A stretch of 35,165 nucleotides of DNA from contig QBMH01000026.1 of NCBI GenBank assembly GCA_003249025.1, forward strand, positions 1 through 35,165. Reading direction: 5' to 3'. The notes beneath the pieces are model-generated. The model did no database searches. It was not told where the DNA came from and was given only the letters and a program-made list of their open reading frames with translations. The stretch comes from Leptolyngbya sp. Lineage in GTDB: Bacteria; Cyanobacteriota; Cyanobacteriia; Leptolyngbyales; Leptolyngbyaceae. A program made the position numbers and the translations under genes. Shown piece after piece: positions 7,834-34,976 of this stretch (within the stretch, counting starts at the first letter, position 1; the number at the start of each line of letters is the position of its first letter).

Positions 7834-10071
7834 TCACAGCTTTCTCATGACTTCTGGTAAAAGATTGGCTGGAATTTTGGACAGTGCCAGCGTTTGCCCT
7901 TGGATGCCAAATTCGCTGTGAAACGCACGGGTGGTTTGGATGATGTAGTCCAAGGTTGTCTGATAAAAATCGGAGCGGGGTTCCCACCCTTGGAACGCTT
8001 GCAAATGTTGATTTAGAGCAGACTCTAGTAAAGTTTGGCGCTGAGGGGAGGTGAGGCTATTGCGTCGATCGCCCGCAAGCTGAAAATAAGACAAGCCCAA
8101 GTTGTTAAATGTGGCGCAGACATCAAAAGTGAGAGCAGGGCGCTGTTCAGTTGGGGCGGAGAGTGATTCTACAGCCGCGATCGCGGCTTCATATGCCTGA
8201 ATCGCCTGCTGTAACTGCTGCGCGCGATCGTCCTGGGCAGTTGTTTTCAGGTTTGCCAGGTTCCAATAAGCAGTACCCAAGTTGTTTTGGGTTGCGGCAA
8301 AGGACGCAGGCACAGTGTCCACCGTGCGGTAGTTAAGGGCAGTGCGATAAGCGGCGATCGCCAATTGCAACAGTCGAGTCGGAGATAAGGTGGAGTGAGC
8401 CAGCTTTGGATTAGGGTTGGGTTTAAGATGCTGTGCCAGATTCCAGTAGGCGGTGCCCAGGTTGTTTTGAATCATGGCATAGTGCATTGGCTCACAGGTT
8501 GGGGTGTAGTGCTGGAGGGCAGCGTGATAGGCGGCGATCGCTTGATTCAGTCGAACAATGGGCTGTTGATGCTGCGCTAAATTCCAACAGGCAGTGCCCA
8601 AGTTGTTTTGGGTGGCAGCATCGCGAGCCATATCCTCTTGTGGATCGCGATAGCGCAATGCCAACTCATAGGCTTCAACTGATTTCAGTAAATTATTTGC
8701 AGGGTCTTGATATTGAGCCAAATCTCCATAAGCAGAGCCAAGATTATTTTGAATCATGGCATAGGTATGAGAATTGGCTTGAGGCGTGATTGTGTTGAGT
8801 GCCAGGGTGTAGGTTTGAATTGCCTGTTGCAAGCTGGCAAGCTGTTGATCGACTGCAACTGGGCTGTGAGACTGCATCCAATACAGATTGCCTAGATCAT
8901 TTGCCCCATCCACCCATTCAGGGCTGTCATCTTGTAGCCATTCCAACGTTGCTTCATGCACCGCGATCGCAATGTCTAGGATTTCTGGAGATGGATTGCC
9001 CCGCTCAAGTCGATTTCGGTAAAGCCGACCTAAATTGAGATATGCCGCCGCGATCGTTTTTTGGGCTGCGCGCTGCTCCAACAATTGATCGATTTGCTGC
9101 AAGTTTCTTAGCGCTATTTGATGGTCTGCCAAGTTGGGTTCGTGGGCGATCGCGGCGAGAATCTGTTCAGTCAGGCGGGATGAGAAGTGCGGGATGCGGG
9201 GTGAAGGGTGCGGAGGGTGAAGGACTTTTGAGTTTTGTAAGTCCTTTGGACTGGCGTTGCCAACGGGCGGCGTTGACCCAGGAGGTATTTTGGATTTTGA
9301 TCCGTTGCTTCGCTGGTTGCTTATATCTAACTGCGCTAAATCGTAGGTCAGCATGTCCCACACTGATTCTTCGAGAGGGGCACCCTCTGTGAGAGTCTCG
9401 GTGTGAGGAATAGGAACGATGGGCGATAAGTTAGGGTGGCTCGAAAGAGGCGTGTCGGTCAGGACTGGAGGCGTTTGAAACTGGGAGATCGCAGAATCTA
9501 GGGTGCGATCGCTGCTCAACCGAGTTTGACTGGTGCTGCGCAGCGGCGTGGGGTCGCCCTCAAACTCAAATAATGCGGTGTGCCAATCCCAAAAAGCTGG
9601 AGCCGATTGTTGCAGCGATCGTAGCCACGGACGCGGCAACCACAACACCATAGTGCCGTCGATTCCTGGCAAATAATATTCAATGGCTTGCAGATGGGTC
9701 AAAAATCGTTTTTGCACCGAGGCAGGTTGACGAGTGAGATGTTCTACCCCAAGAATCTGAAAACTCAGAGAATGGCTAGTAGGTGCATTGCTAGGCTGCG
9801 ACAACCACTGAGCAACTTGAGCCATGGGATTCGGATCACTCAAATTCAAATTCAAACTCACAAAATGTGGAGAGCGAAGAGCCGTCTGCAATTGGGCAAC
9901 GAGATGACTGCGTAGTTCTAGATCATCACAAACTGCCAAAAAGATTTGACGACGCAAATTTAGTTGCAGCGACGTTTTCAGCCGCGAATACAGCTTCTGG
10001 TTTGCTCCAGAAATAGAATAAGCGGCAGCGTTCATCACAATGGCAGGCGTAGGGCAGTCGGCAAATTGCAT
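7834..10071 (-). CDS. Large tetratricopeptide-repeat protein
   Basis: About 745 residues from the ATG at 10071. The N-terminal part contains LYSRLKTSLQLNLRRQIFLA then VCDDLELR, an N-terminal module I associate with cyanobacterial TPR proteins of unknown function. A variable Ser/Pro-rich linker follows. The C-terminal half has at least five consecutive TPR units sharing the QNNLGTAYWNLAQ core (variants QNNLGSAYGDLAQ, QNNLGTACWNLAQ and FNNLGLSYFQLAG). TPRs mediate protein-protein contacts, so this is probably a cytosolic scaffold. The start is uncertain. The frame is open to 10293, but that N-terminus is unlikely; ATGs at 10113, 10071 and 10035 are alternatives and none has a clear Shine-Dalgarno. 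The linker includes a repeat-derived insertion (9181-9247). Its promoter region is shared with divergent der. Confidence 0.75.
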   Translation of the reverse strand: MQFADCPTPAIVMNAAAYSISGANQKLYSRLKTSLQLNLRRQIFLAVCDDLELRSHLVAQLQTALRSPHFVSLNLNLSDPNPMAQVAQWLSQPSNAPTSHSLSFQILGVEHLTRQPASVQKRFLTHLQAIEYYLPGIDGTMVLWLPRPWLRSLQQSAPAFWDWHTALFEFEGDPTPLRSTSQTRLSSDRTLDSAISQFQTPPVLTDTPLSSHPNLSPIVPIPHTETLTEGAPLEESVWDMLTYDLAQLDISNQRSNGSKSKIPPGSTPPVGNASPKDLQNSKVLHPPHPSPRIPHFSSRLTEQILAAIAHEPNLADHQIALRNLQQIDQLLEQRAAQKTIAAAYLNLGRLYRNRLERGNPSPEILDIAIAVHEATLEWLQDDSPEWVDGANDLGNLYWMQSHSPVAVDQQLASLQQAIQTYTLALNTITPQANSHTYAMIQNNLGSAYGDLAQYQDPANNLLKSVEAYELALRYRDPQEDMARDAATQNNLGTACWNLAQHQQPIVRLNQAIAAYHAALQHYTPTCEPMHYAMIQNNLGTAYWNLAQHLKPNPNPKLAHSTLSPTRLLQLAIAAYRTALNYRTVDTVPASFAATQNNLGTAYWNLANLKTTAQDDRAQQLQQAIQAYEAAIAAVESLSAPTEQRPALTFDVCATFNNLGLSYFQLAGDRRNSLTSPQRQTLLESALNQHLQAFQGWEPRSDFYQTTLDYIIQTTRAFHSEFGIQGQTLALSKIPANLLPEVMRKL
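9181..9247. repeat. In-frame low-complexity insertion with TTTTGAG core in the TPR gene
   Basis: The G-rich run GTGCGGGATGCGGGGTGAAG is followed by AAGGACTT (9220-9227), a TTGAGTTTTGT loop and the perfect complement AAGTCCTT (9239-9246). The loop shares the TTTTGAG unit seen at 1960-2047. It translates as a His/Pro/Ser-rich linker (HPPHPSPRIPHFSSR) unlike the surrounding folded domains. Confidence 0.55.
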
Positions 10072-10334
10072 AGTTAAAAAAATCAATGCCAGAGCCTCCG
10101 AATCAAAAGGCATCTGGCGACACTGACGTAGATACCACCTTCTTTCAAAGTTTTTCTGCACTCTCAGGAAAGTGAACCGGAAATCGTTCTGTTGATTTAA
10201 GAAAAAAAGAAATAGTGAAAAATCGATACAACAGCATCCTGGAAAGATCGCTAGAATGAAAGACGGAGATTCAAGCGAATTTGTGCTAGGCAAATTAATG
10301 ACTTGAACTCACTTTCCTTTCAACGTCTTCACCC

Positions 10335-16015: not shown

Positions 16016-19000
16016 TTAAGAAGTGAAGGCAATTTGGAAGAAGCCGCTGCCTCCCAGTTTGCCGAGAGAATCTACAATCGTGAACTGGAAGCCATCACTG
16101 GAGCCAACCCCAGAATAACGGTAGGTGATAATGCCATCCGTAATATCCTTCTGACTAAAGGTTTGTCCTGTAGTCAAGGCTGTACCATTGAGGCGTATCT
16201 CACCGGCACTCGGCAGCGTCCCTAATTTAAAGAACACTTGAGCTGGTGAATTATCGTTATCTGTTGCTCGTAAGATGCTGGTGCTAATTTGACGAGTTGC
16301 TGGAGTTCCCGCCGTGAGTGTGAGTGGAAGATTCGTCACTAGAATCGGTGCGTCATTTACAGGTGCGATCGCGATAGGAACAACATTTGCAATTGCTGGT
16401 GCCGTGCCATCTGATACCTGGAAGCTAAAGAAATCTGATGGATTTTCGCTTCCATTATTTAGGTAAGTGATCGTGCCATTATCAATCTCTTGCTGAGTAA
16501 AGACCGTACCAGAACCAACACTAACTCCGCTCCTTTGAAGTTGACCAAAGGTTGGTTGTCCTTGCAAGGTATAGCGAATTTGAGACGGTAAGTTATCTGG
16601 ATCAGTGGTTAATACAAGGTTTCGCAAGTTCACAGATCCCCCTTCATTTAAGGACAATGGACCTGCCGAAACCACCGTTGGTGCATCATTGACTGGAATT
16701 ACTGAGATATTGAATGAACCCAACACGACACTGCTACCATCACTCACCGAGAAGTTGAATCCATCGGTAGGCGACTCAGCACCACTATTTTGGTAAATCA
16801 AGAGACCATTGTTAACATCCTCCTGCGTAAAGGTTTGACCTTGGGTTAACGGCGTACCACCAAACTGTAGTTGTCCAGCATTCAGATTGCTCTCCAGCGT
16901 ATAAACCAGTTCAGCAGGATTGGTATTATCTACGTCTGTGAAGAGTAGAAGCGTATCCAAGATCGCGCTACCAGCCTCCTCAGATAAGGTTAGCCCTGCG
17001 TTGACTAATACTTTAGGCGGATCGTTGAACGGTATAATTGCGATATTAAAGGTCGTTGGTGTTGCTGGTAGTAAGGCACCTCCATCCGAAATTTGGAAGG
17101 TGAAGCTATCTGAAGTTGCTTCGCTGCCATCCTGGGCATATCGCAAACGATTGTTATCGATATCTGCCTGAGTAAATCGGCTACCTGCACTCAGGGTTGT
17201 AAACCCAGCCCCTGTAGAAATTCGCAACTGCCCAGCAGTTGGCGAACCTGCAACGACGTAACTAATTTGGGCTGTGGTGTTGTCAACATCCGTTGAGCGA
17301 AGCAAGCTGTTGCTAATAATGACGTTTGTTGGAGTTCCGCTACTTTCACCAACTGTTAAGGTGTTCACCGATAGTAAGACCGGATCGTCATTCACCGAAG
17401 TCACATTGATTGTGACGGTGCCTAGCACCGGAACCGGAACTACCGGACCAGAACCTGTTGCTCCTAGATCACTGATGTTAATAATCAGCCTATCGGTGCC
17501 AGAGAAGTTGGCGTTAGGCTGATAGCTGACGTTGGCAAAGGCACTAACGAAGTCATCGATCGCGCCTGTAAAGGTGACGAAACTACCGCCATTCGAGCCA
17601 CCTGTCACATTCAGTCCATCCGCTTGCGGGAGCGTAATCGTCCCTTGCTGTACCGAGAGTATGACCCGAACAGGACTACTACCCGAATCAATATCCGTGA
17701 ACTGAATCGCATTCGCTCCACTAAACACCAGTGGCATTAGCGGATCTTCCGAAATGGTTTGTGTTCCAGGTAAGGTCAACGTGGGTCTATCATTCACCGG
17801 AGTGACGATAATGGTAAACAGTTGCGGAGCCGACGTATCTTGTCCACTTCCAGGGGTAACTCCACCATTGTCTGTTAACTGAACCGTCACTACTGCCGTG
17901 CCGTTGGCATCCGGTGCCGAGGTGTAAGTTAACGTACCCGTTGGGCTAATGGTTGGTGCTACTGAGAATAGAGATGGATTGTCGTTGGCAACCAAGAAAC
18001 TGACGACCTGCGAACTGCCTTCACCCGGACCTGCGGTAATGTTGGATGCAAAGCCGCTCACCGTTCTTGGTCCACTATCTTCAGCCACCGTTTGATTAGC
18101 ACCCTTAGTAAAGGAAGGTGCATCATTGACTGGCAGCACATTAATCGTAAAGACGTAGGGTGCTGCCGCGTCCACACCGCCATTAGCAGTGCCACCGTTA
18201 TCCCGCAGAGTTGCCGTGATTACCGCAGAGCCAAAAGCATTAGGAGCCGTTTGGAAGCTGAGTAATCCTGTTGTTGCATCAATCGCAGGTCTTGCATTGG
18301 ACAAGAATAGATTTGGATTGCTATTCGTAACGCCAAAGCTGAGGGTTTGAGCCGCTTCATTAGTAGCTCCGACTGATAAGTCAGTTGCAATTTGAATGCT
18401 CTGAGCCACATCATCCTCAAGCACTTCTACTAAAGGCGATGCCAAGATGGGTGTGAAGGTTGGCGCATCGTTCACCGATCGCACCACAATTGTGAACAGT
18501 TGTACCGGAGAAGTATCCACACCACCGTTCTCAGTACCACCATCATCTTGTAGACTCACTGTGACAACCGCTGTTCCAAACGCATCTGGTGCAGCCGTGT
18601 AGGTGAGAGTCCCCGTCGGACTAATGGTGGGAGCAACACTGAACAAGGAGTCGTTATTGGTACTAACCAGGAAGTTTGCAGATTGAGTACTTTCATTTGC
18701 CAAGGTTGTGGTCGGACCGGTGCGAATGTTGGTTGCCCAGCCATTGACCGTGACAGCGGCAGCATCTTCATTAATGGTCTGGTTTACTCCCTTCGTGAAA
18801 GTTGGCGCATCATTCACTGGATCAATGGTGATGGTCAGGACAACCGGATCAGAGGTATTAATACCCCCATTGAGAGTGCCACCATTATCTCTGAGAGTCA
18901 CTGTCACGTTTGCCACCCCATTCGCATCTGCGCGCGGTGTATAGGTGAGTGTGCCCGTCGATGAAATCACGGGGGGAGTCTGGAACAAGCTGGGATTGTC

Positions 19001-22000
19001 GTTCCCTGTGACCAGGAAAGTCAATGCTTGACCTGATTCATTCGGTGCCCCTGCGGAAATACCCGTTGCCCAACCCGGAACAGTCACTTGAGGGGCTGCT
19101 GTAGTCGATGAGCCAGATTCATTAATCGTGAAACTGGTGGCAATGGGTGTAAAGGTCGGTTTATCGTTGATTGAAGTGACGTTCAGGCTGATTGATTTCG
19201 TTACCGCTAACGGTCCAGATAGCCCGGTTGCGCCTTGGTCGTTCACGGTTACTGTAATCCGATCGCTTCCAAAGTAGTTGGGATTGCCTTGATAGACTAG
19301 ACCAGCAAGTGCCGCTTGAGCATCAGCAACCAATCCGGTAAAGGTCAGGGAACTGCTGCCGTTGGCTGTGTCATTAATAAAGGTGAGCAGTCCGTTATCA
19401 TTGACTGTCAAAGTACCGTTGGGAGCAGTTAGGGTTACCTGAAGCGGGCTATCTCCAGAATCCACATCATTCAAGGTGAGATTCAGTGCGGCAGTGGGTA
19501 GATCTTCGCTGATGGTAATGGTTGCGGTTGGCACCGTTAAGGTGGGCGCATCATTGACCGCCACCACGTTCATGGTGATGACCTGAGTGGTGGGTGTTGT
19601 ACCATCGTCTACCACAACTGTGATTTGCTCAGTGCCGTTAAAGTCTTGCGTACCTCTGTATTTCAGACCGTTTAGGGCACCTGAGATCGCATTACGGGCG
19701 ACACTGAAGGAGATGGAACCTGTATTGTTCCCTGTTAAACCGATTAATCCAGTGGTGGACGCTAATCCTAACGTTCCGCCAAACTCGCTAGTGAGGGTTA
19801 CTGTTAGCGGCGTGGAATCTGGGTCAGCAGCGTCGATCCGATTGATGCCGGAAAACGTGAATTGAGTATCTTCATTTACGTTTAAGAGTGCGGCAGTGGG
19901 TATGGTAATCGTGGGCGCATCATTAACGGGATTGACCGTGAGGCTAAACGTGGACAGGGGCAAGGTGCCGGTTGAGCCATCGGATGCAGTGAACGTAAAG
20001 CGATCGCTCGTTACCTCACTACCGTTATTCACATAGGTCAAGAGCGCGGCGCTAATATCTGCCTGAGTAAAGGTTTGTCCCGAAGAAAGCGTTATGCCAT
20101 CTCTTACCAGCAATCCACGGGTCGGTGCTGTACTGAGAGTATAAATGGGGCTGAGAGCCGGACCATCTGGATCTGTAATGAGAAGAGCCGCATCATTAAT
20201 GATCAGCGTGTTCCCTTCATCAACTGCCAACCCGGTGTTCAACACAATCTTCGGTGCATCGTTTACTGGGGTGACGGAGATGTTGAAGGTTTGGATGCCA
20301 GCCGCGTCTCCGCTGGTATCAGTTACATCAAAGACGAAGTTATCAGTCGTGGTTTCACTGCCATTGTGCTTGTAGGAAATCAGATTGCCGTCAATGTCTG
20401 CCTGAGTAAAGGTGCTAACGGCTGTACCCGCTTTGAGCAGGGTTCCGTTGGCAGGCGAAGAGGAGACACTGAAGGTTAGCTGTGAAGACACATTATCTAC
20501 GTCGGTTGCGCTGAGAATGGACTTGTTGATGGTAACCAATCCTTCCTCTAGAAGCGTGATGCCGAGATTGGTAGCAATGGTTGGTGCATCGTTCACAGGT
20601 GTGATGGAAATGCTAAAGGTAGTTAAACCAATTAAGCCCGGTGCGCCTAGTCCAGAGGTTGCCCCATCGGAAGCCGTGAAAGTGAAGCGATCGCTGGTAA
20701 ACTCACTGCCATCGTTATCGTAAAAGACCTGACCATTATCCAAATCGAGTTGACTAAAGGTTCCACCAGCCGACAGAGTGGTATTGCCACTGCGTAAAAC
20801 CCCTCTCAGAGGACCATTGCCCAACGTGTAAGTTAATAGTCCAGGTCCATCGTTATCAGTAATCAGCAAGTTGCTGCTGTTTAAAGCAGCCGTAGCCCCT
20901 TCACTTAACGTGAGGGTGACCTTGGTGGCTAGTCCTGGTGCGTCATTGACTGGAATAACACTGATGTTGAATGTAGACGGACCAACTGGAGTTCCAGACT
21001 GATCCGTAATAGTGAAGGAGAAACTGTCAGATGAGGCTTCTGATCCACTCTGCTGATATCTAATCAATCCGCTATTTACGTCAGATTGAGTAAAGGCAGA
21101 TACGGCTGTGCCGTTTAGCAGAATTGTGCCATTGGATGGTGCAGCCGCGATCGCATAGGTGATTTGAGAGGCTAGACCATCGGGATCAGTTGCATTAAGC
21201 AGCGAACTGGAGAAGCTAACACTTCCCCCTTCTGTTACGGTAGCCTGCGGGTTAGTTGTGAGTAAGATGGGCAGATCGTTGACCGGAAGAACACTGATGC
21301 TAAAGGTTTGGGGTGCCAGCAGAGTGGTATTACCCGATTCATCAGTAAAGGTAAACGTGAAGGCATCCCTGGTGGTTTCGCTGCCATTCTGTTGGTAGGT
21401 AACCCGACCATTGTTGATGTCGTCTTGCGTGAAGATGCCACCCACGGAAATCGGGGAACCGGCTACGGCTAACTGCCCGTTTAGTGGAGCAAGAGAGCCA
21501 ACGGTATAGCGAAGGAACGGTGGGGCACTATCAGAATCACTAATATCAAGCTCAGCATTCGATAGGGTTACTCGCTCGTTTTCATTGACGATTAAACTTG
21601 GGTTCGTTGTTAACAATACGGGAGAGCTTTTCACTCCCAGCACAAAGATCTCGAAGGTCGATGGGGCGATCGTGTTGACACCATCCGAAACGGTGAAAGT
21701 AAAGCGATCGCTGTTGGTCGAAGTCCCGTTATGCACGTAGGAAACGCGACCAGCATTCAAATCTGCCTGGGTGAAGGTATTCGCCACAGTAGAGTTGAGA
21801 AAGAGCGTCCCTTGAGTTGGCGAACCTGTCACTGAAAAGGTGATCGAATCTTGAGCCGCCGGAGATAAAAGCTCAGCATCGGTTGCTCTCAAAAGCGTTG
21901 CCGCGATCGTTCTACTTGCTCCAGTGCTAACAGTAGTCCCCGTATTGGTCACAAGTACTGGCGCATCATTCTCCTGCAACACTGAGATGCTAAACGTGCG

Positions 22001-24223
22001 TTGGGCTGGCACCAAGAACCCACCAGCACCATCGGTTACGGTGAAGGTAAACTTGTCACTACCCGGTATATCGGCTCCGTTTATATCGTAAGTCTCACTG
22101 CCATTCTGTTGATAGCTCAGATTACCGCTGTCAATATCTGCTTGGGTAAAAGTATTGCCCAACGTGAGCGGCTGGGCTCCACCTAAAACATTCAGCAGCA
22201 ATGTGCCCTTCGTCGGCGAACTGTTCAAGCTATAGACAATTTGAGATGCCCCTTGCTCCACATCGGTAACGGACAAACTGCTGCTGCCAATGGTGGTTGC
22301 AGATCCTTCTGAAACCGTAATGGGCGCAAGAGCGACTAGAACAGGCAAGTCATTGACTGGAACGGTGTTAATAGTAAATGTTGTATTGGGAATCGCACCA
22401 CCTTGACCATCAGATACCGTAAAGATAAACCGATCGGTTAGGATAGCTTGCTCACTACCATTTTGCTGATAGACAAGCCTTCCCTGATTAATGTCTTGCT
22501 GAGTGAAAATGTCACCCGTGCTAATTGCGGCTCCATTACGCAGCAGACTGCCATTGGCAATATTAGGTGCGCCTGCTAGTTGATAGGTTAATTGTGTAGG
22601 TGAATTATTTGCATCTGTGACCAAGAGCAAGTTACTGCTAATTGTTCGTGATGATGACTCACTAACGATGAGTGGACCGCTAGAAACCAGCACAGGCGGA
22701 CTATTTGCCTGCAAACTTAGCTCATAAGGGCTAGCTGCACCCGCCGTACCCGCAAAGACTCGAACATAGTAAGTCCCGCTAGCAAGGTTCAGATTTGTCA
22801 AGCTTTCGGGTGTTATGGCTCCGTTACGTGAAGAGGCAACCACTCCTCCACTGCTGTTCAAAATCTGTACGTCTAAGTTGTCTGCTAGGGGGGCACCCCC
22901 TACGCCGTTTAGGTTTAAGCCAACCAGCGATCGCGCATTCAGTGAGAATCTATAGTAATCATTCGGATCACTGGCTGTAATAGAATCACGGTAAATTCCG
23001 CTCGCATTTAAGGTGCCTATATTGAGGGATGCCGCCAAGGTATTTCCGGCTGCATCTTGTTGGATAACTGGCAGCGATCGCGTCCGAGGAGCAGCGGCCT
23101 GCCAATTCGTGCCAGCGACCGTAGTGATTGGAACCACTGCCGTGCGATCTATTCCATCCATTAGCCAAACTTGGTTTGCCCCCGTGGAGAAGTTGCGGAA
23201 GAGGATATCATTCCGTCCATCTCCATTAAAATCTCCAACAACTTGAGGAGTTAAGGCAGGTGAAGCCAGCAGACTAGCGGAGGAAGCCAAGGTTGTTCCA
23301 TTCAAGAACCAAACCAAATTGGCACCTGTAGTGCTGTTATGCCATAGCAAATCGGGAGAGTTATCGTTGTTGAGATCACCAACCCCCTTAACGCGCCAAC
23401 CAGCACCAGGCAGGGTTCCTATCGTTACGGTGCTGGCTATAGAAGAAGTTGAATTTAATAACCAAGTGCGAACTGTGCCTGTCGAAACATCTTGAAAGAT
23501 AATGTCTGGAACAGTATCGCCATTCAGATTGCCAACTCCAGCGATAACGACAGCAGGATTTGGTTCGCGAGGCAAGACACCGGAGCCAGTTAGCTGAGCG
23601 TTAGAGTTTAATAGCCAAAATGTCTGCGTCCCTATAGGAACATCAGTAGTGCCAAAGTAGCGCCAAACGAGATCACCAATACCATCATTGTTAAAATCAC
23701 CTGAGCCTGAAAGAAACCAAGAAGGGTTCGGACTAGATTGAATGCGAGTATTTGCGGCTATAGCCGTGCCATTCATTGTCCAGACACGAGTCTCGCCATA
23801 GGCATAATCACGCCAAGTAATGTCAGTACGAACGCCTGTATCGCTTCGCACATTAAGCGTATAGTTTGTGCTAGGAGTTGTGTTGGCAGGAGCGGCAGGA
23901 TCGGCAGGATCGCCCGGAAACACTCGAATGAAATAGTCACCTGGAGGAAGAACGGTGTTGATTGTTTCAATCAACGATCCTTGATTAAGGGACTGAAGTA
24001 GAACACCACCCACGGAGACCACCACGTCACTGGCATCAACAATGGCAACATCGGCATTGGCACTTAAACCTGTCAGGGCTAGGTTGAAGCTGCTACTTTT
24101 ATTTAGCGTAAATTTGTAATAGTCTACATCGCCAAACTCTACTGAGTCGGTAAAGGTCTTCGTATTTGTACCTAAGAAAATCGGACGAGCGAGATCTCGG
24201 GTATTTCCAATACTGTCGGGCAT
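16016..24223 (-). CDS. Giant cadherin/CSPG-repeat surface protein (type I secretion candidate)
   Basis: 2735 residues. There is no N-terminal signal peptide, and I found no cysteine on reading it. Domain order: PPC-like beta-sandwich (about 10-130); FG-GAP/VCBS-like repeats with Ca-binding-type loops such as GDFNNDGIGDLVW, GDLNNDNSPDLLW and GDFNGDGRNDILF (about 130-385); a second PPC-like domain (about 390-510, YYRFSLN...GTYYVRVFAG); then 19 Ig-like repeats of about 105-130 residues. Repeats 1-8 and 16-19 are CSPG type (TFTQADIDxGxxxYxxNGSE, then SDxFTFTVSDG). Repeats 9-15 are cadherin-like and different. Most are joined by PVNDAP linkers. No RTX nonapeptides (GGxGxD) are visible. It probably acts as a Ca-stabilised extracellular adhesin or sheath protein. 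The ATG at 24223 has only a weak upstream GGGG. Its export system appears to be the two minus-strand genes upstream. Confidence 0.88.
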   Translation of the reverse strand: MPDSIGNTRDLARPIFLGTNTKTFTDSVEFGDVDYYKFTLNKSSSFNLALTGLSANADVAIVDASDVVVSVGGVLLQSLNQGSLIETINTVLPPGDYFIRVFPGDPADPAAPANTTPSTNYTLNVRSDTGVRTDITWRDYAYGETRVWTMNGTAIAANTRIQSSPNPSWFLSGSGDFNNDGIGDLVWRYFGTTDVPIGTQTFWLLNSNAQLTGSGVLPREPNPAVVIAGVGNLNGDTVPDIIFQDVSTGTVRTWLLNSTSSIASTVTIGTLPGAGWRVKGVGDLNNDNSPDLLWHNSTTGANLVWFLNGTTLASSASLLASPALTPQVVGDFNGDGRNDILFRNFSTGANQVWLMDGIDRTAVVPITTVAGTNWQAAAPRTRSLPVIQQDAAGNTLAASLNIGTLNASGIYRDSITASDPNDYYRFSLNARSLVGLNLNGVGGAPLADNLDVQILNSSGGVVASSRNGAITPESLTNLNLASGTYYVRVFAGTAGAASPYELSLQANSPPVLVSSGPLIVSESSSRTISSNLLLVTDANNSPTQLTYQLAGAPNIANGSLLRNGAAISTGDIFTQQDINQGRLVYQQNGSEQAILTDRFIFTVSDGQGGAIPNTTFTINTVPVNDLPVLVALAPITVSEGSATTIGSSSLSVTDVEQGASQIVYSLNSSPTKGTLLLNVLGGAQPLTLGNTFTQADIDSGNLSYQQNGSETYDINGADIPGSDKFTFTVTDGAGGFLVPAQRTFSISVLQENDAPVLVTNTGTTVSTGASRTIAATLLRATDAELLSPAAQDSITFSVTGSPTQGTLFLNSTVANTFTQADLNAGRVSYVHNGTSTNSDRFTFTVSDGVNTIAPSTFEIFVLGVKSSPVLLTTNPSLIVNENERVTLSNAELDISDSDSAPPFLRYTVGSLAPLNGQLAVAGSPISVGGIFTQDDINNGRVTYQQNGSETTRDAFTFTFTDESGNTTLLAPQTFSISVLPVNDLPILLTTNPQATVTEGGSVSFSSSLLNATDPDGLASQITYAIAAAPSNGTILLNGTAVSAFTQSDVNSGLIRYQQSGSEASSDSFSFTITDQSGTPVGPSTFNISVIPVNDAPGLATKVTLTLSEGATAALNSSNLLITDNDGPGLLTYTLGNGPLRGVLRSGNTTLSAGGTFSQLDLDNGQVFYDNDGSEFTSDRFTFTASDGATSGLGAPGLIGLTTFSISITPVNDAPTIATNLGITLLEEGLVTINKSILSATDVDNVSSQLTFSVSSSPANGTLLKAGTAVSTFTQADIDGNLISYKHNGSETTTDNFVFDVTDTSGDAAGIQTFNISVTPVNDAPKIVLNTGLAVDEGNTLIINDAALLITDPDGPALSPIYTLSTAPTRGLLVRDGITLSSGQTFTQADISAALLTYVNNGSEVTSDRFTFTASDGSTGTLPLSTFSLTVNPVNDAPTITIPTAALLNVNEDTQFTFSGINRIDAADPDSTPLTVTLTSEFGGTLGLASTTGLIGLTGNNTGSISFSVARNAISGALNGLKYRGTQDFNGTEQITVVVDDGTTPTTQVITMNVVAVNDAPTLTVPTATITISEDLPTAALNLTLNDVDSGDSPLQVTLTAPNGTLTVNDNGLLTFINDTANGSSSLTFTGLVADAQAALAGLVYQGNPNYFGSDRITVTVNDQGATGLSGPLAVTKSISLNVTSINDKPTFTPIATSFTINESGSSTTAAPQVTVPGWATGISAGAPNESGQALTFLVTGNDNPSLFQTPPVISSTGTLTYTPRADANGVANVTVTLRDNGGTLNGGINTSDPVVLTITIDPVNDAPTFTKGVNQTINEDAAAVTVNGWATNIRTGPTTTLANESTQSANFLVSTNNDSLFSVAPTISPTGTLTYTAAPDAFGTAVVTVSLQDDGGTENGGVDTSPVQLFTIVVRSVNDAPTFTPILASPLVEVLEDDVAQSIQIATDLSVGATNEAAQTLSFGVTNSNPNLFLSNARPAIDATTGLLSFQTAPNAFGSAVITATLRDNGGTANGGVDAAAPYVFTINVLPVNDAPSFTKGANQTVAEDSGPRTVSGFASNITAGPGEGSSQVVSFLVANDNPSLFSVAPTISPTGTLTYTSAPDANGTAVVTVQLTDNGGVTPGSGQDTSAPQLFTIIVTPVNDRPTLTLPGTQTISEDPLMPLVFSGANAIQFTDIDSGSSPVRVILSVQQGTITLPQADGLNVTGGSNGGSFVTFTGAIDDFVSAFANVSYQPNANFSGTDRLIINISDLGATGSGPVVPVPVLGTVTINVTSVNDDPVLLSVNTLTVGESSGTPTNVIISNSLLRSTDVDNTTAQISYVVAGSPTAGQLRISTGAGFTTLSAGSRFTQADIDNNRLRYAQDGSEATSDSFTFQISDGGALLPATPTTFNIAIIPFNDPPKVLVNAGLTLSEEAGSAILDTLLLFTDVDNTNPAELVYTLESNLNAGQLQFGGTPLTQGQTFTQEDVNNGLLIYQNSGAESPTDGFNFSVSDGSSVVLGSFNISVIPVNDAPTVVSAGPLSLNEGGSVNLRNLVLTTDPDNLPSQIRYTLQGQPTFGQLQRSGVSVGSGTVFTQQEIDNGTITYLNNGSENPSDFFSFQVSDGTAPAIANVVPIAIAPVNDAPILVTNLPLTLTAGTPATRQISTSILRATDNDNSPAQVFFKLGTLPSAGEIRLNGTALTTGQTFSQKDITDGIITYRYSGVGSSDGFQFTIVDSLGKLGGSGFFQIAFTS

Positions 24224-24460
24224 CGCGGCTTATCACCCCATCAAATGGCATTGCTATGATGCCCCAGGAGTTGATCTCGGCGCACACACTTTACACAACT
24301 TTACAAAAACCGCCCATTAGCATGGAAAAAATCGTGGTTTTTACCCCAGGTAGACAGTATTTTATACAAAGCTTTTTAGAAAGGATAGAAGCTTGTACTA
24401 TTTTGTCGGGCTTGACTATCGAGAATTTACGGTTGAGATCGCCCGTTCAACATAATTTCT
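24224..24460. other. Spacer between the ABC exporter and adhesin genes
   Basis: 237 bp with no gene. It contains a small inverted repeat GGCAT (24247-24251) / ATGCC (24259-24263) upstream of the adhesin start, and no T-run terminator. Co-transcription with the exporter is possible but not shown. Confidence 0.3.
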
Positions 24461-27049
24461 TTAAACAGCCGCTTGTTGTCTCTGGTAAAGCGACCAGTAC
24501 AATCCCTTGCTCTTAAGCAGATCATCATGAGTGCCCTTTTCTACCAGCACCCCTTTTTCTAGCACTAAAATTAAATCTGCTTTTTTCAATGGTGCAAATC
24601 GGTGAGCAATCAGAAAAACGGTGCGATTCGCTGAAACCCGCTGCAAACTTTGCAAAACTTGCTGCTCAGTTTCACTATCTAAAGCACTCGTTGCTTCATC
24701 AAGCACTAAAATTGGAGCCTGTGAAAGAAACAGGCGCGCCAGCGCTAATCGCTGCCGTTGCCCACCAGACAGGGCTGTCCCTCTTTCTCCAATATTGGTT
24801 TCATACCCATGAACTTGATCACTAATAAAGTCATGGGCAGCCGCTAAGCGAGCTGCTTCAACCACCTGTTCGGCGGTCACATTAGGATTTCCAAGACTGA
24901 TATTGTCAAAAATAGTGCCATTAAACATGAAATCTTCTTGCAGCACTACCCCAATTTGCTGACGCAAGGAAACCAAGTCAGCACTTTTAATATCAAATCC
25001 ATCTACTAAAATGCGTCCAGATTCCGCTGGATAAAGCCGCTGAATTATTTTAGAAAGAGTACTTTTTCCAGACCCGCTTCGACCCACTACTCCTACGAGC
25101 ATTCCTGGCTCAACCGTAAAGGAAATTCCGCGTAATACAGGTTCCTGATTGGGGTTATACCGAAAAAAGACTTGATCAAACATAACTTGCCCTTGTAGGG
25201 GTGGCAAGACTAAACCAGTGCCTGCTTCGGTTTCGGGAGCAGTGTTAAGAATATCGCCAATGCGATCGACTGAAAGCAGGACTTGCTGAAGCGTTTGCCA
25301 AAGCTGAATTAATCGCAGCAAAGGTCCCGTCATGCGACCCGACAGCATTTGAAAGGCAACCAGTTGACCAATCGTCAGCTTTTGCTCAATCACTAGCTTT
25401 GCCCCAAACCACAGGATAAGCACAGAAGAAAGTTTAGTGAGGAAGTCCGCAATGTTGCCGCTGATGTTAGAAGTCGTTGAGGCTTTGAAACTGGTGCGGA
25501 TGAATCTGGCAAATAATCCTTCCCATCGTTCTCTCGAAACTGGCTCTGCCGTATGGGCTTTAACAGAGTGAATGCCAGTTACCGTTTCAACTAAAAATGA
25601 CTGACTATCAGCACTGCGGTTGAAGCTCTCATTGAGCCATCCTCGCAAAATTGGGGTTGCAATGATAGTAAGCGCCGCAAATAGAGGTAATACTGACAAT
25701 GCAACCCACGTTAGGGTAACGCTGTAATAAAACATGACCGTTAAATAAACGCTGGCAAAAATTGCGTCTAAAACAACCGTCATTGCAGTGCCTGTGAGGA
25801 AGCTGCGAATATTTTCTAGCTCTTGTACTCGTGCAACCGTATCACCAACGCGTCGTGCTTCAAAGTAAGACAAGGGCAGCCTCATCAGATGCCGAAAAAG
25901 TTGGGCAGAAAGGCTCAGGTCTAACCGCCGCGCAGTATGGGTAAAGACGAACAAGCGCAGCGCTCCCAGAAACCCTTCAAAAAAGCCCACTGCCAAGAGA
26001 GCAAATGCCATCACGTCTAGGGTGGAGAGGCTGCCCTGCACCATGACTTTATCGATGACAACCTGCGTAATGACTGGACCTGCTAAACCCAAAATTTGTA
26101 GGGTGAATGATGCTAGCAACACCTCACTGAGCAGGCGGCGATATCTCCAGACGGCTGGCAAGAACCAAGATAAACCAAAGCGTTCTTGCTTCTGGATGGT
26201 TTCAATTTGCCACAGTTGACCATCCCAAACTGTTTGAATGATGGAGCGGGGAATGCTTTCACAGGTTTTATTAGGATTGAGAGGGTCTGCAACAATCAGG
26301 CGATCGCCCTTCGTGCTATAGACCACCACCCAATGAGCCGATCCTTTAGAGCTATTGTTTTGAAACGTTGACGATGCGGTATCTTGGTCTTGCCACATCA
26401 TCAGGATGGGATACTCTAACCGCCGCAATCCGGTCCAATCAATCCCTTGGCTACTGCGTAAATCAATATGACGTAACTGCAACCCTACTTTTTCAGCCGC
26501 TTCAATCACATCGGCTGGCCGTTGACTCGACAGTTGCCGTTGCACCCAGTCCAAACTGGTAGAAATTTGCAAATGATTGGCTGCCATAGTTAGGCAGGCA
26601 GCAGGAGTATTTACGGCTGCCACAAAAGGAAAGCCAGAAACAGCCTGAGGGGAATCATCTGTTTTAGGCTGTAGACGGATGCGGTGAGATGCCCAGTAGC
26701 TCTCCAACGCTGGAGTTGCGATCGCCTGCCATAGATCGGTTCGCCAACTGACCAAAACCACATCCTTCTCTGCCGCCCTTGCCTTCCAAGCACCCGGCAA
26801 CTCCAGCAAATCTCCCACCCAGTCTCCCGCTTTTAGAATGACAGACTGCTCATCCTCAGGCACTAAACGCACCTTACCCTTCAGCACATAACTATGCATT
26901 CCAGGAGAATCAGTTGCCCAAATCACTTCTCCCAGCCCATAGCGACGAACTTCTGCTTGCTGCTTAAGCTGAACCTGTTGGTCTGCATTTAGCAAGCTAA
27001 GCGGTGGAGAATTCCAAGGCAGATTGGTAGTGAGATCAGTTGCAATCAT
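24461..27049 (-). CDS. Type I secretion ABC exporter with cNMP-like and inactive C39-like domains
   Basis: 862 residues. Order: degenerate cyclic-nucleotide-binding-like beta-barrel (about 15-120, GKVRLVPEDEQSVILKAGDW); C39 peptidase-like domain (about 140-280); six-helix ABC membrane domain (about 300-590); nucleotide-binding domain with Walker A GRSGSGKST (656-664), LSGGQRQR (760-767), Walker B ILVLDEAT (780-787) and H-loop H816. In the C39-like domain the catalytic Cys position is Thr148 (NTPAACL), although His239 and Asp255 are kept. It therefore probably docks substrate without cleaving a leader, as in HlyB. AGGAA lies 6 nt before the ATG. It is downstream of the PPIase and upstream of the giant adhesin, both on the same strand, so the adhesin is the likely cargo. 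A HlyD partner and TolC must be encoded elsewhere. Confidence 0.9.
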   Translation of the reverse strand: MIATDLTTNLPWNSPPLSLLNADQQVQLKQQAEVRRYGLGEVIWATDSPGMHSYVLKGKVRLVPEDEQSVILKAGDWVGDLLELPGAWKARAAEKDVVLVSWRTDLWQAIATPALESYWASHRIRLQPKTDDSPQAVSGFPFVAAVNTPAACLTMAANHLQISTSLDWVQRQLSSQRPADVIEAAEKVGLQLRHIDLRSSQGIDWTGLRRLEYPILMMWQDQDTASSTFQNNSSKGSAHWVVVYSTKGDRLIVADPLNPNKTCESIPRSIIQTVWDGQLWQIETIQKQERFGLSWFLPAVWRYRRLLSEVLLASFTLQILGLAGPVITQVVIDKVMVQGSLSTLDVMAFALLAVGFFEGFLGALRLFVFTHTARRLDLSLSAQLFRHLMRLPLSYFEARRVGDTVARVQELENIRSFLTGTAMTVVLDAIFASVYLTVMFYYSVTLTWVALSVLPLFAALTIIATPILRGWLNESFNRSADSQSFLVETVTGIHSVKAHTAEPVSRERWEGLFARFIRTSFKASTTSNISGNIADFLTKLSSVLILWFGAKLVIEQKLTIGQLVAFQMLSGRMTGPLLRLIQLWQTLQQVLLSVDRIGDILNTAPETEAGTGLVLPPLQGQVMFDQVFFRYNPNQEPVLRGISFTVEPGMLVGVVGRSGSGKSTLSKIIQRLYPAESGRILVDGFDIKSADLVSLRQQIGVVLQEDFMFNGTIFDNISLGNPNVTAEQVVEAARLAAAHDFISDQVHGYETNIGERGTALSGGQRQRLALARLFLSQAPILVLDEATSALDSETEQQVLQSLQRVSANRTVFLIAHRFAPLKKADLILVLEKGVLVEKGTHDDLLKSKGLYWSLYQRQQAAV

Positions 27050-27165
27050 TGAGGGTTCCTGGACTAACGCGTTTAAGGGGTGGGGATAACCGAACTTCGC
27101 AAGACATCAACAGCGCTACTCTAGCAAATGGATCAAATCAAATGGATACTGGAAAACTCAGGGTG

Positions 27166-27951
27166 TTATTCATTTACTTGAAGCTTAACCGTCATCGCTT
27201 GGATTTTTTCAGTTAGCCATCGTTCAAACAGTTCACCTTGCATCGTTTGCTTGAGTTGGGCATCCTCCAAGGTCGCAGGCAGAAATTGTTCAACGCGAAA
27301 AATTGCCCAGTAACTCTCAATCGGTAAAGGACCTACTACACTTCCCGGCTCAACCGAATCAAGCGCCGACCTTAACACATCGGGCATGGTGCCACGACTC
27401 ACGGGTCCCATCATGCCATTAGCAACCCGCTCATCCGCCTTAGAGTATTCGCGAGCAAGTTGCTCAAAACTACCGCCTTCAGCAATTTGGGTATGCAGTT
27501 CTTCTGCCATTTCCTTGCTTTCTACCACAATGCGCGATAGGACAATTCGATCGAGCATTAGCTTTCGTTCAATAAAATGCTCTTGCAGACGAGGTTCGGT
27601 CACCTGAGCCTTGAGTTTTTCAAGCTTAAAGCTATTTTTGATTTGATCGTGAAATAAATCATAGGTTGTGCCATTCCGCACGAGCCAATCTTGAAACGAC
27701 TGCTGATCGGTCAATTGATTTTGCAACCGGAAATCAACCGATGCTTGTTCCACCGCAGCGGGGTTAATCTCCAACCCTTCGCGAGTGTCTAACTCTTGTT
27801 CTAAAACATACTGGCGCAAAACATCTCCAATAAATCCTTGTAATTTTCCGCCCATTTGCAGATAGCGTAAACATTGCCTCAGCGAAAGGGGCTTTTCGTC
27901 AACAATGAGGAGTGCGTTTGTTTCTGTGACGTTTGCGACGTTTGCTTCCAT
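27166..27951 (-). CDS. Parvulin-type peptidyl-prolyl cis-trans isomerase (SurA/PrsA-like)
   Basis: 261 residues with no signal peptide. A helical N-terminal SurA-N-like region (about 1-130: LSLRQCLRYLQMGGKLQGFI, QLTDQQSFQDWLVRNG) precedes a parvulin/rotamase domain (about 130-230). That domain contains LSRIVVESKEMAEELHTQIA, EGGSFEQLAREYSKADERVA, MGPVSRGTMPDVLRSALDSV, and GPLPIESYWAIFRVEQF. A short helical tail closes it. The catalytic rotamase core is recognisable but lacks the usual first-strand HILV histidine (here DRIVLSRIVV), so isomerase activity may be reduced. It is 116 bp upstream of the ABC exporter on the same strand. With no export signal it would act in the cytosol, perhaps holding the adhesin unfolded before export. 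That role is inference. Confidence 0.85.
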   Translation of the reverse strand: MEANVANVTETNALLIVDEKPLSLRQCLRYLQMGGKLQGFIGDVLRQYVLEQELDTREGLEINPAAVEQASVDFRLQNQLTDQQSFQDWLVRNGTTYDLFHDQIKNSFKLEKLKAQVTEPRLQEHFIERKLMLDRIVLSRIVVESKEMAEELHTQIAEGGSFEQLAREYSKADERVANGMMGPVSRGTMPDVLRSALDSVEPGSVVGPLPIESYWAIFRVEQFLPATLEDAQLKQTMQGELFERWLTEKIQAMTVKLQVNE

Positions 27952-32179: not shown

Positions 32180-32211
32180 ACTCCGCCCTCTGTACTCCGC
32201 CCTCTGTACTC
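32180..32211. repeat. 14-bp tandem duplication between convergent genes
   Basis: ACTCCGCCCTCTGT occurs twice without spacing (32180-32193 and 32194-32207), followed by ACTC. It sits between the DUF2259-like gene and the GH1 gene and touches the GH1 stop codon. No terminator hairpin is visible. Confidence 0.8.
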
Positions 32212-33763
32212 ACTTAGTTGACAAACTACCTTTCATTTCGCGGATGAGTTGAGCGTAGGTTTCGGAGGGGCGATCGCCTAGATGATCTTCCAGGATGCGA
32301 TCGCTCCCCTGAGTAAAGTCAATCGAAAGCAGCCCAAATCGCGGCGTATACGATCCCCACTCGTAGTTATCCGTCAGCGACCAGTGCATATAACCCACCA
32401 TGGGCACGCCCTCTTTAAGCAAGCGCTCCACTTGAAACACATGGGCTTTCAAAAACTCGCTGCGTTGTAGTTGATCCCCGCGTCGGGATGCTACGCTGTT
32501 ATCGGGTTTTCGCCGTAACGCCATGCCATTTTCAGCAATTAAAATCGGATAATTGCCAATTTCCTGAGCATAAAACTTACAGAAAAAATGCAACCCTTCC
32601 GGTAGACTTCGCCAATCCCACCATTTACTGGTGATGCCGCTCATCAGCCAGCCGCGAAAATCTTTCGTCTCAAACTCAAAATCAGAAAACGAGGGCAAGC
32701 GAAAAACATGGGCAATAAAGGGATCGTAGTAATCAATCCCAATGAAATCAAACACTTGGGCGCGGGGTGAGGCTTCCAGTTCTTGCAAAAAGCTGCCTAA
32801 GTGACGCGCATCAAAGTTACGTCGCCCCAACCGATTGCTAAACCAATGAGCGAAGCGCCCCAGTTGATAGGGTAAATCTCGCCGAAACGAAAGATTAGCG
32901 CTTTTTAGCGCGGCTTCCATTCGTTGAGCGTTGGCGTAGACGTAAGTTTGCAGATCGGTCAAATCTACCGATCGCAGCCGCAAACTGAGCAAATCCCAAA
33001 TGACTTTTTCAGACCAGTAGAGATCGCTGCAATAGGTGTTGAGCGATACGCGGGGAGTTGCCCAACCTTCCGTTTCGTACAGGTCGTGAATCAGGTTGTA
33101 AGCACGCACATGAGCCGCCAGCAAATGGTTATAGGCTGGAAACACCGACCCGATCCCCAGCATAGAATCGGTGGGAAATTGTCCACTGAGGTAGGTATTA
33201 GAAACCAAAATATTGGGTTCATTCAGGGTGATATACCAGTGGATTGGGGCAAGCTGATGATTGTCAATCAGGCGACGGTTAATGTAAGCAACCGTGGTTT
33301 GGACGTATTCGCCAAAGCGATCGATGGTGTCTTCTGACAACCAGGCATCTAATCCCAGCCAAGCAGGATGGGTGAAGTGATGCAGGGTAATTACTGGCTC
33401 CAGTCCATAGCGACGACAGGCAGCAATGCGATCGGCGTATCCGTCTAGAGCCTCAAGGTCAAATGCTGGAGTTGAAGCGGGCGATAGTTCTGTGGAAGGC
33501 TGAATTCGCGCCCATTCCAAACCGAGACGAAAGGCGGTTAACCCCATGTGCTGGCAGGCTTGAAAGTCTTCTTCATAGCGTGTCCAAAATTCCGCTGCTG
33601 CGCCCGTTTTCATGACGCTGCCGCGCTGTTCGCTGAGGAACCAGTTGTTTTTGGGTTCGCCTTCGCCGTTGTAGCCGCCTTCAATTTGATAACCGGAGGT
33701 TGCGACTCCCCACAGAAATGGTTCTGTTGCGGAAGAGGAAGCGGAATGGGAATTACTCTGCAT
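32210..33763 (-). CDS. Family 1 glycoside hydrolase (beta-glycosidase)
   Basis: 517 residues from the ATG at 33763; a GTG at 33775 would add four. TIM-barrel beta-glycosidase. The N-terminal signature is FLWGVATSGYQIEGGYN. The acid/base Glu is in YITLNEPN (E182). The nucleophile Glu is in LIAENGMA (E411). The sugar-binding aglycone/glycone motif VGYMHWSLTDNYEWG is near the C-terminus. There is no signal peptide, so it is probably cytosolic or membrane-peripheral. The start lies inside the last codons of the upstream glycosyltransferase gene (about 11-bp overlap), implying one transcript with coupled translation. The natural substrate is unknown; its partner hints at glycolipid metabolism rather than cellulose use, which is inference. 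Confidence 0.93.
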   Translation of the reverse strand: MQSNSHSASSSATEPFLWGVATSGYQIEGGYNGEGEPKNNWFLSEQRGSVMKTGAAAEFWTRYEEDFQACQHMGLTAFRLGLEWARIQPSTELSPASTPAFDLEALDGYADRIAACRRYGLEPVITLHHFTHPAWLGLDAWLSEDTIDRFGEYVQTTVAYINRRLIDNHQLAPIHWYITLNEPNILVSNTYLSGQFPTDSMLGIGSVFPAYNHLLAAHVRAYNLIHDLYETEGWATPRVSLNTYCSDLYWSEKVIWDLLSLRLRSVDLTDLQTYVYANAQRMEAALKSANLSFRRDLPYQLGRFAHWFSNRLGRRNFDARHLGSFLQELEASPRAQVFDFIGIDYYDPFIAHVFRLPSFSDFEFETKDFRGWLMSGITSKWWDWRSLPEGLHFFCKFYAQEIGNYPILIAENGMALRRKPDNSVASRRGDQLQRSEFLKAHVFQVERLLKEGVPMVGYMHWSLTDNYEWGSYTPRFGLLSIDFTQGSDRILEDHLGDRPSETYAQLIREMKGSLSTK

Positions 33764-34976
33764 GGGCGATCGCACTGGTTTCTAATGAGCCTGCTTCTAT
33801 GGCATTGGTTTCTAATGCACTGGTTTCTAAAGTCTGCATCACTCGACGAGCATGGAGATCATTCAGGATGTGTTCGGCGATATTCAGCGCCGCCCGTGGT
33901 TGTCCTAGTTCTAATGCCGATTGGTGCATTTCGGCAAGGCGATCAGGGCGCTTCAATAGGTATTGCACGGCAGGTGCCACCATCTCTAGTAATCGTAGCT
34001 GCACTCCCGCACCCGCCGCCGCAATCACGTCTGCATTTTGCTCCTCTTGCCCAGGAATGGGGTCTACAATCACCATGGGATTTCCTCGCGCCAAAATTTC
34101 GCTGGTAATTAAGCCCCCGGCTTTGGTCACCACCAAATCACTTGCGACCACTAAATCATCCACATAATCAATCTCTTTCAACTTACGCAATTGGACATGA
34201 GCACTATCGGTCACCTCTTCCAGTGCTTCCACTAATTTTTCATTTCGTCCAGCAACCACGATTAAGACCATGGGCAATGGGCTTGTCAGCAAATCGACCA
34301 CCATTGATTTGACCCGCCGGGGATTCAAGCCGCCACCAAACAGGGTGACTACAGGGAGATGATTGGGCAAAGAGTGCCGCGATCGCGCCTCTTCCCTCGT
34401 TTTTGGCTCCATAATCTCCAGCTTTACAGGAATCCCCGTTACATGCAGCACTGCCGGATTCACGCCCCGCTGGATCAGCAAATTGGCGCTGAGAATATTG
34501 GGTAGAAAATAGCCATGCACGCCGTAATTAATCCAAGTACTATGGGCAATCACGTCCGTTACTACGACATATTGAGGTTTTGCTGTGTGAGCATCTTGCT
34601 CCAAAATTTGCAGTAAACGGCTAGGAATTTGCTGGACACAGACGATCGCATCAGGATCAAACTCTTTGAGCAACTGTTCCAAATCAGCAAAAAAGGGGCG
34701 TTCTAGTTTTGCCCAAGTCAGGTTGCTATCGAGGGATTTTTCCAGATCGCTGATGTCGCTCCCTTCATAAAAGGCTTTGTAAAGCTGGGGAGCCTTTTCG
34801 CTCAATTGCTTGTAGGCTTGGGTTACCGCACTCCGGTAAAGCGGATTGGCATAGCTCAAGGCATCTTCAGTGCGAACTTCCACCTCAGAAATACGTTCAA
34901 ACGCATCGCATAGAGCCTTCGCTGCATTCAGGTGTCCGGCTCCTAACGAAGCGTGTAATATCAAAATCCGCGTCAT
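33753..34976 (-). CDS. MGDG-synthase-like GT28 glycosyltransferase
   Basis: 407 residues. GT-B fold glycosyltransferase of the MGDG synthase/MurG-like group. The N-terminal domain begins RILILHASLGAGHLNAAKAL, the MGDG-synthase-type acceptor domain, with AYKQLSEKAPQLYKAFYEGS. The C-terminal donor domain has TLFGGGLNPRRVKSMV and VVTKAGGLITSEILARGNP, then PGQEEQNADVI, the nucleotide-sugar binding site. It probably transfers a sugar from a UDP-sugar to a lipid acceptor at the membrane. Whether the product is MGDG, a glucolipid or something else cannot be told. The last 25 residues are a 5-residue tandem (LETSA-type) encoded by a 15-bp DNA repeat, outside the fold. It overlaps the GH1 gene downstream. 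Confidence 0.88.
   Translation of the reverse strand: MTRILILHASLGAGHLNAAKALCDAFERISEVEVRTEDALSYANPLYRSAVTQAYKQLSEKAPQLYKAFYEGSDISDLEKSLDSNLTWAKLERPFFADLEQLLKEFDPDAIVCVQQIPSRLLQILEQDAHTAKPQYVVVTDVIAHSTWINYGVHGYFLPNILSANLLIQRGVNPAVLHVTGIPVKLEIMEPKTREEARSRHSLPNHLPVVTLFGGGLNPRRVKSMVVDLLTSPLPMVLIVVAGRNEKLVEALEEVTDSAHVQLRKLKEIDYVDDLVVASDLVVTKAGGLITSEILARGNPMVIVDPIPGQEEQNADVIAAAGAGVQLRLLEMVAPAVQYLLKRPDRLAEMHQSALELGQPRAALNIAEHILNDLHARRVMQTLETSALETNAIEAGSLETSAIAHAE
33774..33838. repeat. 15-bp coding tandem repeat at the glycosyltransferase 3' end
   Basis: Four or five degenerate units of the type (G)CACTGGTTTCTAATG are read on the minus strand as LETSA, LETNA, IEAGS, LETSA and IAHAE. The period is 15 bp / 5 residues, so unit gain or loss keeps the frame. 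The GH1 start codon lies just beyond it. Confidence 0.75.

Follow-up and report, generated by a model that had tools for sequence, protein, structure and literature searches.

A paired MGDG-synthase-type glycosyltransferase and family-1 glycosidase in Leptolyngbya and other bacteria: a probable glycolipid module

We analyzed a 35,165-nucleotide (nt) stretch of DNA from Leptolyngbya sp. (contig QBMH01000026.1, positions 1 to 35,165; hereafter the window), in which two overlapping genes lie on the minus strand. The upstream gene (33753..34976) encodes a 407-residue glycosyltransferase (GT) of the monogalactosyldiacylglycerol (MGDG)-synthase/UgtP type (GT28), and the downstream gene (32210..33763) encodes a 517-residue family-1 beta-glycosidase (GH1) of a subfamily that we call type 1. 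Both are open reading frames (ORFs), which match PF06925 and PF00232, respectively. With the ATG as the GH1 start, the end of the GT gene and the start of the GH1 gene share 11 nt (33753..33763, minus strand), which agrees with the pair and the overlap of about 11 bp proposed in the original prediction; a GTG at 33775 is an alternative start that gives 521 residues. The same spacing of -11 was found in seven further cyanobacterial loci (L049, L054, L059, L070, L074, L076, and L094). Inspection of the GH1 N-terminus, MQSNSHSASSSATEPFLWG, for which no signal-peptide program was run, revealed no hydrophobic stretch, and thus the earlier statement that GH1 carries no secretion signal looks right.

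The GT scored 83.4 bits against the MGDG_synth model PF06925 (curated cut-off 25), the domain covering residues 15-184 (34425..34934, minus strand). Its top NCBIfam match was UgtP (PRK13609, diglucosyl-diacylglycerol synthase) with 171.7 bits, below the equivalog cut-off of 500, and the best PDB sequences were UgtP 9wde and MGD1 4wyi. The predicted structure (predicted local distance difference test score, pLDDT, 89.6) showed a two-domain GT-B fold like that of MGD1, with Z 34.8, a root-mean-square deviation of 2.5, 320 aligned residues, and 24% identity over the aligned fold against 4wyi. Two MGD1 entries were matched at Z 34.8 and 33.6, whereas every other entry among the matches listed gave 26.1 or less. 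G12, G14, and H15 just before the domain were invariant in 45 of 45 aligned GTs, as were G309, Q310, E311, and E312 of the PGQEE motif (residues 308-312; 34041..34055, minus strand), which we take to serve in donor binding. The GT thus shares the domain, the fold, and the conserved GxGH and PGQE motifs with plant MGD1 and Bacillus UgtP (GT28, PF06925), although it differs from them in its low identity to MGD1, its score under the UgtP cut-off, and its being encoded with a GH1.

GH1 scored 195.2 bits against PF00232 (cut-off 22.6) but is divergent, since it fell under the cut-offs of all eight NCBIfam models matched; its score against the BGL beta-glucosidase model TIGR03356 was 195.1 bits, whereas the equivalog cut-off is 478.5. 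The structural model (pLDDT 87.6) matched GH1 structures at Z 35.8-37.9, which indicates a GH1 fold. E182 in the NEP motif (33218..33220, minus strand) and E411 in the ENG motif (32531..32533, minus strand) were invariant in 54 of 54 aligned GH1 relatives, together with Q26, H129, N181, Y346, W461, E468, and W469. By homology with other GH1 enzymes, E182 is presumably the acid/base and E411 the nucleophile, and the other invariant residues presumably form the glycone site. Standard GH1 profile matches break at about residues 230-315, and thus over much of a helical stretch that the model places between strands beta-5 and beta-6 (residues 245-340; 32744..33031, minus strand), with helices at 253-259, 268-289, 297-316, and 319-331.

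The occurrence of the pair was examined in 42 genomes of the order of the window, 386 genomes of the phylum, 240 Verrucomicrobiota, 121 Methylococcales, and a scan of named genomes; the samples share genomes with the named-genome scan, so that their counts do not represent independent evidence. Within the order, 12 of 42 genomes possess a GH1 of the window type, and GT adjoins it in all 12. In the phylum sample, a GH1 match at E 1e-30 was detected in 17 of 386 genomes and a GT match in 11 of 386. Close relatives of GH1 (at least 66% identity, the window's own included) were found in six of the 386, and close relatives of GT (at least 60%) in the same six, always adjacent. Thus, the conservation across cyanobacteria that had been suggested as a check holds in that GT adjoins the close GH1 in all carriers, whereas the distribution itself is patchy.

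The named-genome scan gave 79 GH1 loci in Cyanobacteriota, Verrucomicrobiota (including Methylacidiphilum and Methylacidimicrobium), Methylococcales, and seven actinobacterial metagenome-assembled genomes (MAGs). GT lies immediately upstream on the same strand in 70 of them, L052 and L065 being counted as paired though their GT is split over two frames. In these 70 pairs, for which gene starts were set heuristically, the median gap is 5 nt, 26 pairs overlap, and 54 have gaps below 50 nt; the overlaps in L053, L084, and L118 are inflated because extraction went beyond the stop. The nine unpaired loci comprise the seven actinobacterial ones, L110 at a contig edge, and L089 of a Methylobacter, in which pieces of GT lie beside GH1. 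This Methylobacter has an open related GT elsewhere (L202). In the cyanobacterial genome G015 (L018/L019), it is GH1 that is split over two frames, and the adjoining GT is open. Ten of 121 Methylococcales genomes possess GH1, with GT adjacent in nine, the tenth locus ending at a contig edge. Type-1 GH1 is present in eight of 240 Verrucomicrobiota genomes, with GT adjacent in seven, one of these GTs being split over two frames. The pairing is far beyond chance, and the pair stands as the unit that it was originally taken to be.

The actinobacterial GH1s without GT form a sister group (MAG loci L119, L120, L122, and L124-L127); by eye, a PIG-L-like gene adjoins two of them, and a set resembling 2-oxoacid:ferredoxin oxidoreductase adjoins three. 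In Methylacidiphilum-type genomes, a second MGDG_synth-domain protein of about 650 residues is encoded apart from the paired GT (L205, genome G427, contig C27, 3540-5474; also L142 and L145). The unpaired verrucomicrobial GTs at L187, L189, and L190 abut or slightly overlap the upstream gene and face an EamA-type transporter. The gene upstream of the L187 GT is a low-molecular-weight phosphatase by Pfam, and those at L189 and L190 look alike by eye.

A conserved third gene was rejected. ORFs of the 79 loci were clustered (greedy ORF calls, single linkage, flanks of up to 10 kb as the contig permits), and no family besides GH1 and GT was present in more than six loci, one of the six-locus families being an antisense ORF over GT. 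No sugar-utilisation gene family recurred around the pair in this clustering or in 14 loci that were inspected, and no biosynthetic gene family recurred in the clustering. The GH1 of L078 runs on, in the same frame, into a segment whose start is signal-like and which by eye, with no family search, resembles another secreted glycoside hydrolase; since it occurs in a single MAG, this fusion was taken as a read-through or an assembly effect and not as a Rosetta stone. Control of the cyanobacterial pair by a Pho box was not convincing, because the best two-repeat box upstream of 28 cyanobacterial GTs had on average 3.46 mismatches, near the 3.83 of shuffled sequences, and we make no claim of phosphate regulation. 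No paper on such a gene pair was found by title or abstract within the open-licence PMC literature.

A second GH1 lineage was found beside the same kind of GT. Seven of 20 verrucomicrobial GT stretches that lack a type-1 GH1 contain another, shorter GH1 next to GT, which we call type 2 (L192, L193, L194, L196, L198, L199, and L200). In the 240 Verrucomicrobiota genomes there are ten close type-2 relatives (at least 54% identity), of which nine adjoin GT, five in the order GH1-GT and four in the order GT-GH1; the one on contig C99 of G569 does not. Among 20 weaker relatives, only one is near GT, on the opposite strand. In the GH1 tree, type-2 enzymes form a single clade (100/100) well apart from type 1, which indicates that GH1 and this GT family were joined more than once.

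GT may have been exchanged among the type-1 pairs. When 67 of 72 candidate type-1 loci were compared, the others being left out because a GT or GH1 read was short or missing, GH1 and GT identities were correlated among cyanobacterial loci (r 0.78, 465 pairs), and likewise when Verrucomicrobiota and Methylococcales were taken together (r 0.89, 630 pairs), but not between the two groups (r 0.03, 1116 pairs). Between the groups, GH1s are 39-59% identical, whereas GTs are just 25-35% identical. Where GH1s were 55-60% identical, GTs averaged 60.0% identity in cyanobacteria and 62.9% in Verrucomicrobiota plus Methylococcales, but 31.2% between them. This mismatch looks as if the GT partner had been exchanged and the pairing kept.

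Trees of 70 GT rows (every second type-1 locus) and 66 GH1 rows (every third), both with named additions and with GT rows L196 and L206 representing the same gene, were also compared. Cyanobacterial GH1s are nested within verrucomicrobial GH1s (97/94), whereas the paired verrucomicrobial GTs stand apart from the cyanobacterial ones, in a group (100/99) with type-2 and unpaired GTs. A single origin of the type-1 pairs with co-inheritance of both genes was rejected on the ground that one type-1 GT clade was disfavored, at moderate strength, by the approximately unbiased test (p 0.034), for which the pairing labels were fixed before the tree, while the choice of test and the addition of L202 to the group were made with the tree at hand. 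These sequences are most simply read as the replacement of one partner, with the partnership kept. Alternatively, the cyanobacterial GT may have evolved at an accelerated rate, as its long stem in the GT tree (2.52) would allow; the identity comparison fits either explanation, and we judge replacement to be the simpler. That GH1s of both lineages adjoin the same kind of GT, type 2 in both gene orders, and that the GTs have diverged between groups far more than their GH1 partners, argue for a functional coupling of the two enzymes.

Several lines of evidence point to the nature of the acceptor. A GT on contig C82 of the Methylobacter genome G431 (L202, 2841-6256) is the sister of the paired Methylococcales GT at L084 (100/99). 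It follows a gene for a metallophosphoesterase of the PlcP/LpxH kind and a gene for the lysophospholipid transporter LplT (552.6 bits, cut-off 297). The phosphoesterase matches the Pfam family Metallophos and scores under the LpxH equivalog cut-offs, and we take it to be PlcP-like from its motifs and setting. Its relatives were also found in the GT loci L177 and L185. The arrangement recalls the PlcP-Agt lipid remodelling of Proteobacteria, which likewise depends on a gene pair for diacylglycerol glycosylation. In the portions of PMC9239053 available, a putative diacylglycerol glycosyltransferase is reported to replace agt in Methylobacter tundripaludum and Crenothrix; Agt is grouped there with GT4 enzymes, unlike the window GT (GT28), and GH1 is not mentioned for the PlcP-Agt system. 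Cyanobacteria are described as using MgdA, MgdE, and DgdA (PMC6946739, available in part).

The solved sequence nearest to type-2 GH1 is BGPh, the membrane-associated alkyl-beta-glycosidase of Pyrococcus horikoshii (1vff), with 293 bits, the next being 264. We know of no GT partner of BGPh, although no search for one was made. As described in the accessible text of PMC4687101, it cleaves long-alkyl glucosides, bears a hydrophobic mound with basic residues around it, and has a relative active on steryl glucosides. The window GH1 belongs to a separate GH1 lineage, with 29% identity to BGPh over the fold; 1vff was matched at 3.7e-32, and 27 chains among the matches listed scored better, so that the window GH1 is not of the BGPh type. 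A similar interfacial habit may be proposed for it by analogy. Taken together, the fold and family of GT, the PlcP/LpxH-like and LplT neighbors of the sister GT, and the affinity of type-2 GH1 to BGPh strongly suggest that GT and GH1 act on a membrane lipid acceptor.

Two elements of the window GH1 are candidates for contact with the membrane. The basic loop that directly follows the nucleophile (residues 414-435; 32459..32524, minus strand) has a net charge of +4. Its mean charge is +3.88 in 32 cyanobacterial, +3.03 in 39 verrucomicrobial and Methylococcales (range -4 to 8), and +3.71 in seven actinobacterial sequences, whereas three other GH1 groups average -0.57 to -1.58 in the same loop. 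The other element is a cationic amphipathic helix, LPYQLGRFAHWFSNRLGR (residues 297-314; 32822..32875, minus strand), which was picked after the sequences had been read and which ranks first among 500 windows of the window GH1 by a moment-plus-charge score. The segment also ranks first of 161 in 21 cyanobacterial rows. As a family-wide membrane anchor the helix was rejected, since it stands out in cyanobacteria and not in the other groups. We infer with moderate confidence that GH1 docks on the membrane through the basic loop and, in cyanobacteria, the amphipathic helix.

The best explanation of these data, and in our view a probable one, is a two-enzyme glycolipid module that serves lipid turnover or remodelling. 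GT would be a peripheral membrane enzyme like MGD1 and UgtP that adds a beta-linked glucose or galactose from a UDP-sugar to diacylglycerol. GH1, a cytosolic retaining beta-glycosidase, would dock on the membrane by a face that is basic and amphipathic and lies close to the active site, and would take the hexose off the glycolipid (turnover) or hand it to another acceptor (remodelling). One operon could thereby set the level or the head group of one glycolipid. Turnover or trimming is somewhat favored over a net synthesis of oligoglycolipids. The glycolipid-remodelling module of the original prediction is thus partly supported, by the conserved unit, the lack of recurrent sugar-utilisation genes, and the pointers to a lipid acceptor; the pair is not general in Cyanobacteriota.

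A number of observations weigh against a dedicated module of this kind. Many GTs stand without a GH1 partner: a GT match was present in 74 of 240 Verrucomicrobiota genomes, and a GH1 in the same direction adjoins it in 16 (seven type 1, nine type 2). One verrucomicrobial GH1, in G517, is unpaired. Weaker matches in the phylum sample (GH1 35-43%, GT 34-35%), which come from non-photosynthetic relatives, lie on separate contigs where a genome has both. The seven actinobacterial GH1 relatives (37-39% identity) have no adjacent GT, and no PF06925 match was found in any of the four tested genomes that carry one; since these GH1s nevertheless possess the basic loop, the loop is not tied to GT. Conversely, the type-2 lineage lacks the basic loop (-0.8). 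The helix segment ranks only 9 of 161 in 26 verrucomicrobial and Methylococcales rows and 11 of 161 in seven actinobacterial rows. Finally, no PlcP-like gene was found in the type-1 pair loci examined, nor in 16 of the 23 genomes that were screened for one, almost all of which bear the pair, including six of six cyanobacterial genomes. None of the three genomes of Methylacidiphilum (G427), Methylacidimicrobium (G428), and strain LP2A (G429) had one, in agreement with the lack of PlcP reported for verrucomicrobial methanotrophs in the available text of PMC9239053.

SFR2 (GGGT), the plant GH1 galactolipid:galactolipid galactosyltransferase, acts in freezing tolerance and carries an N-terminal hydrophobic membrane anchor. 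GH1 may be its prokaryotic analogue and build di- or oligoglycosyl lipids from the monoglycosyl lipid of GT by glycolipid:glycolipid transfer, although we consider this unlikely. The GH1 active site is complete, with both catalytic glutamates as in SFR2. A glycolipid substrate is probable, and GH1 is closely paired with an MGD1-type GT, just as SFR2 uses what an MGD-type enzyme makes. The window GH1 lacks the N-terminal anchor of SFR2. Among 32 cyanobacterial relatives, mean hydropathy over 19 residues peaked at 1.27 within the N-terminal 60 residues. At the position that we take to be that of loop A, the window's profile is about four residues shorter than the standard GH1 profile and has no long insertion. 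An approximate SFR2 query, which serves as a lead only, was closer to the type-2 lineage (best 201 bits) than to the window lineage (94 bits). In SFR2, which provides the precedent for such a transferase, loop A is described as variable, required for activity, and different in length among SFR2-like proteins (PMC11525325, available in part). A close relation to plant SFR2 was not supported, and the likeness is at most a functional analogy. A separate transferase may also be unnecessary, because a B. subtilis enzyme of this GT family by itself makes mono- to tetraglycosyl lipids according to the accessible part of PMC9239053. In a bolder version, the pair would be a make-and-move operon, in which the head group would be built or reshuffled by GH1 and not by another enzyme that uses a nucleotide sugar; this counterpart of MGD1-SFR2, for which two or more origins from separate GH1 lineages and a new choice of GT would have to be assumed, is a doubtful proposition at present.

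It is rather improbable that the pair makes and removes the beta-glucoside of an aglycone other than a glycerolipid, in a reversible storage or detoxification cycle; a polyprenol, a hopanoid or sterol-like lipid, or a small metabolite would be the candidates, with the same low likelihood. MurG and natural-product GTs also have the GT-B fold, the BGPh relative cleaves steryl glucosides (PMC4687101, in the part available), and the rarity of PlcP-like genes noted above would suit such a cycle. However, MGD1 is matched far above the MurG and GT1 folds (Z 34.8 versus 26 and below), the sister GT adjoins the PlcP/LpxH-like and LplT genes, and no biosynthetic gene family recurs nearby. That GH1 is an ordinary beta-glucosidase for cellobiose or soluble glucosides, its adjacency to GT being without functional meaning, is very unlikely. 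Its fold and conserved active site resemble those of soluble enzymes, but the pairing is held across phyla, two GH1 lineages, and two gene orders, no sugar-utilisation genes recur around it, and GH1 is far under the BGL equivalog cut-off.

Elsewhere on the minus strand of the window (16016-27951), three consecutive genes for a 2735-residue cadherin-repeat protein, an ABC exporter, and a PpiC-type isomerase give the appearance of a giant adhesin that is secreted by the machinery encoded beside it. An 819-residue ORF at 7834-10293 had no Pfam match at 1e-5.

If the two enzymes form a glycolipid module as we propose, they would represent a compact bacterial means of tuning non-phosphorus membrane lipids in cyanobacteria, methanotrophs, and Verrucomicrobiota, and GH1 enzymes that act on membrane lipids, as plant SFR2 does, could be studied with them in simple bacterial models. 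The proposal is a testable claim on two otherwise unremarkable gene families. Since verrucomicrobial methanotrophs are reported to be devoid of PlcP (PMC9239053, in the part available), yet Methylacidiphilum and Methylacidimicrobium carry the pair, it is a candidate for their glycolipid metabolism. Since the pair is kept in very different bacteria, control of sugar-bearing membrane lipids by two such enzymes is probably widespread.

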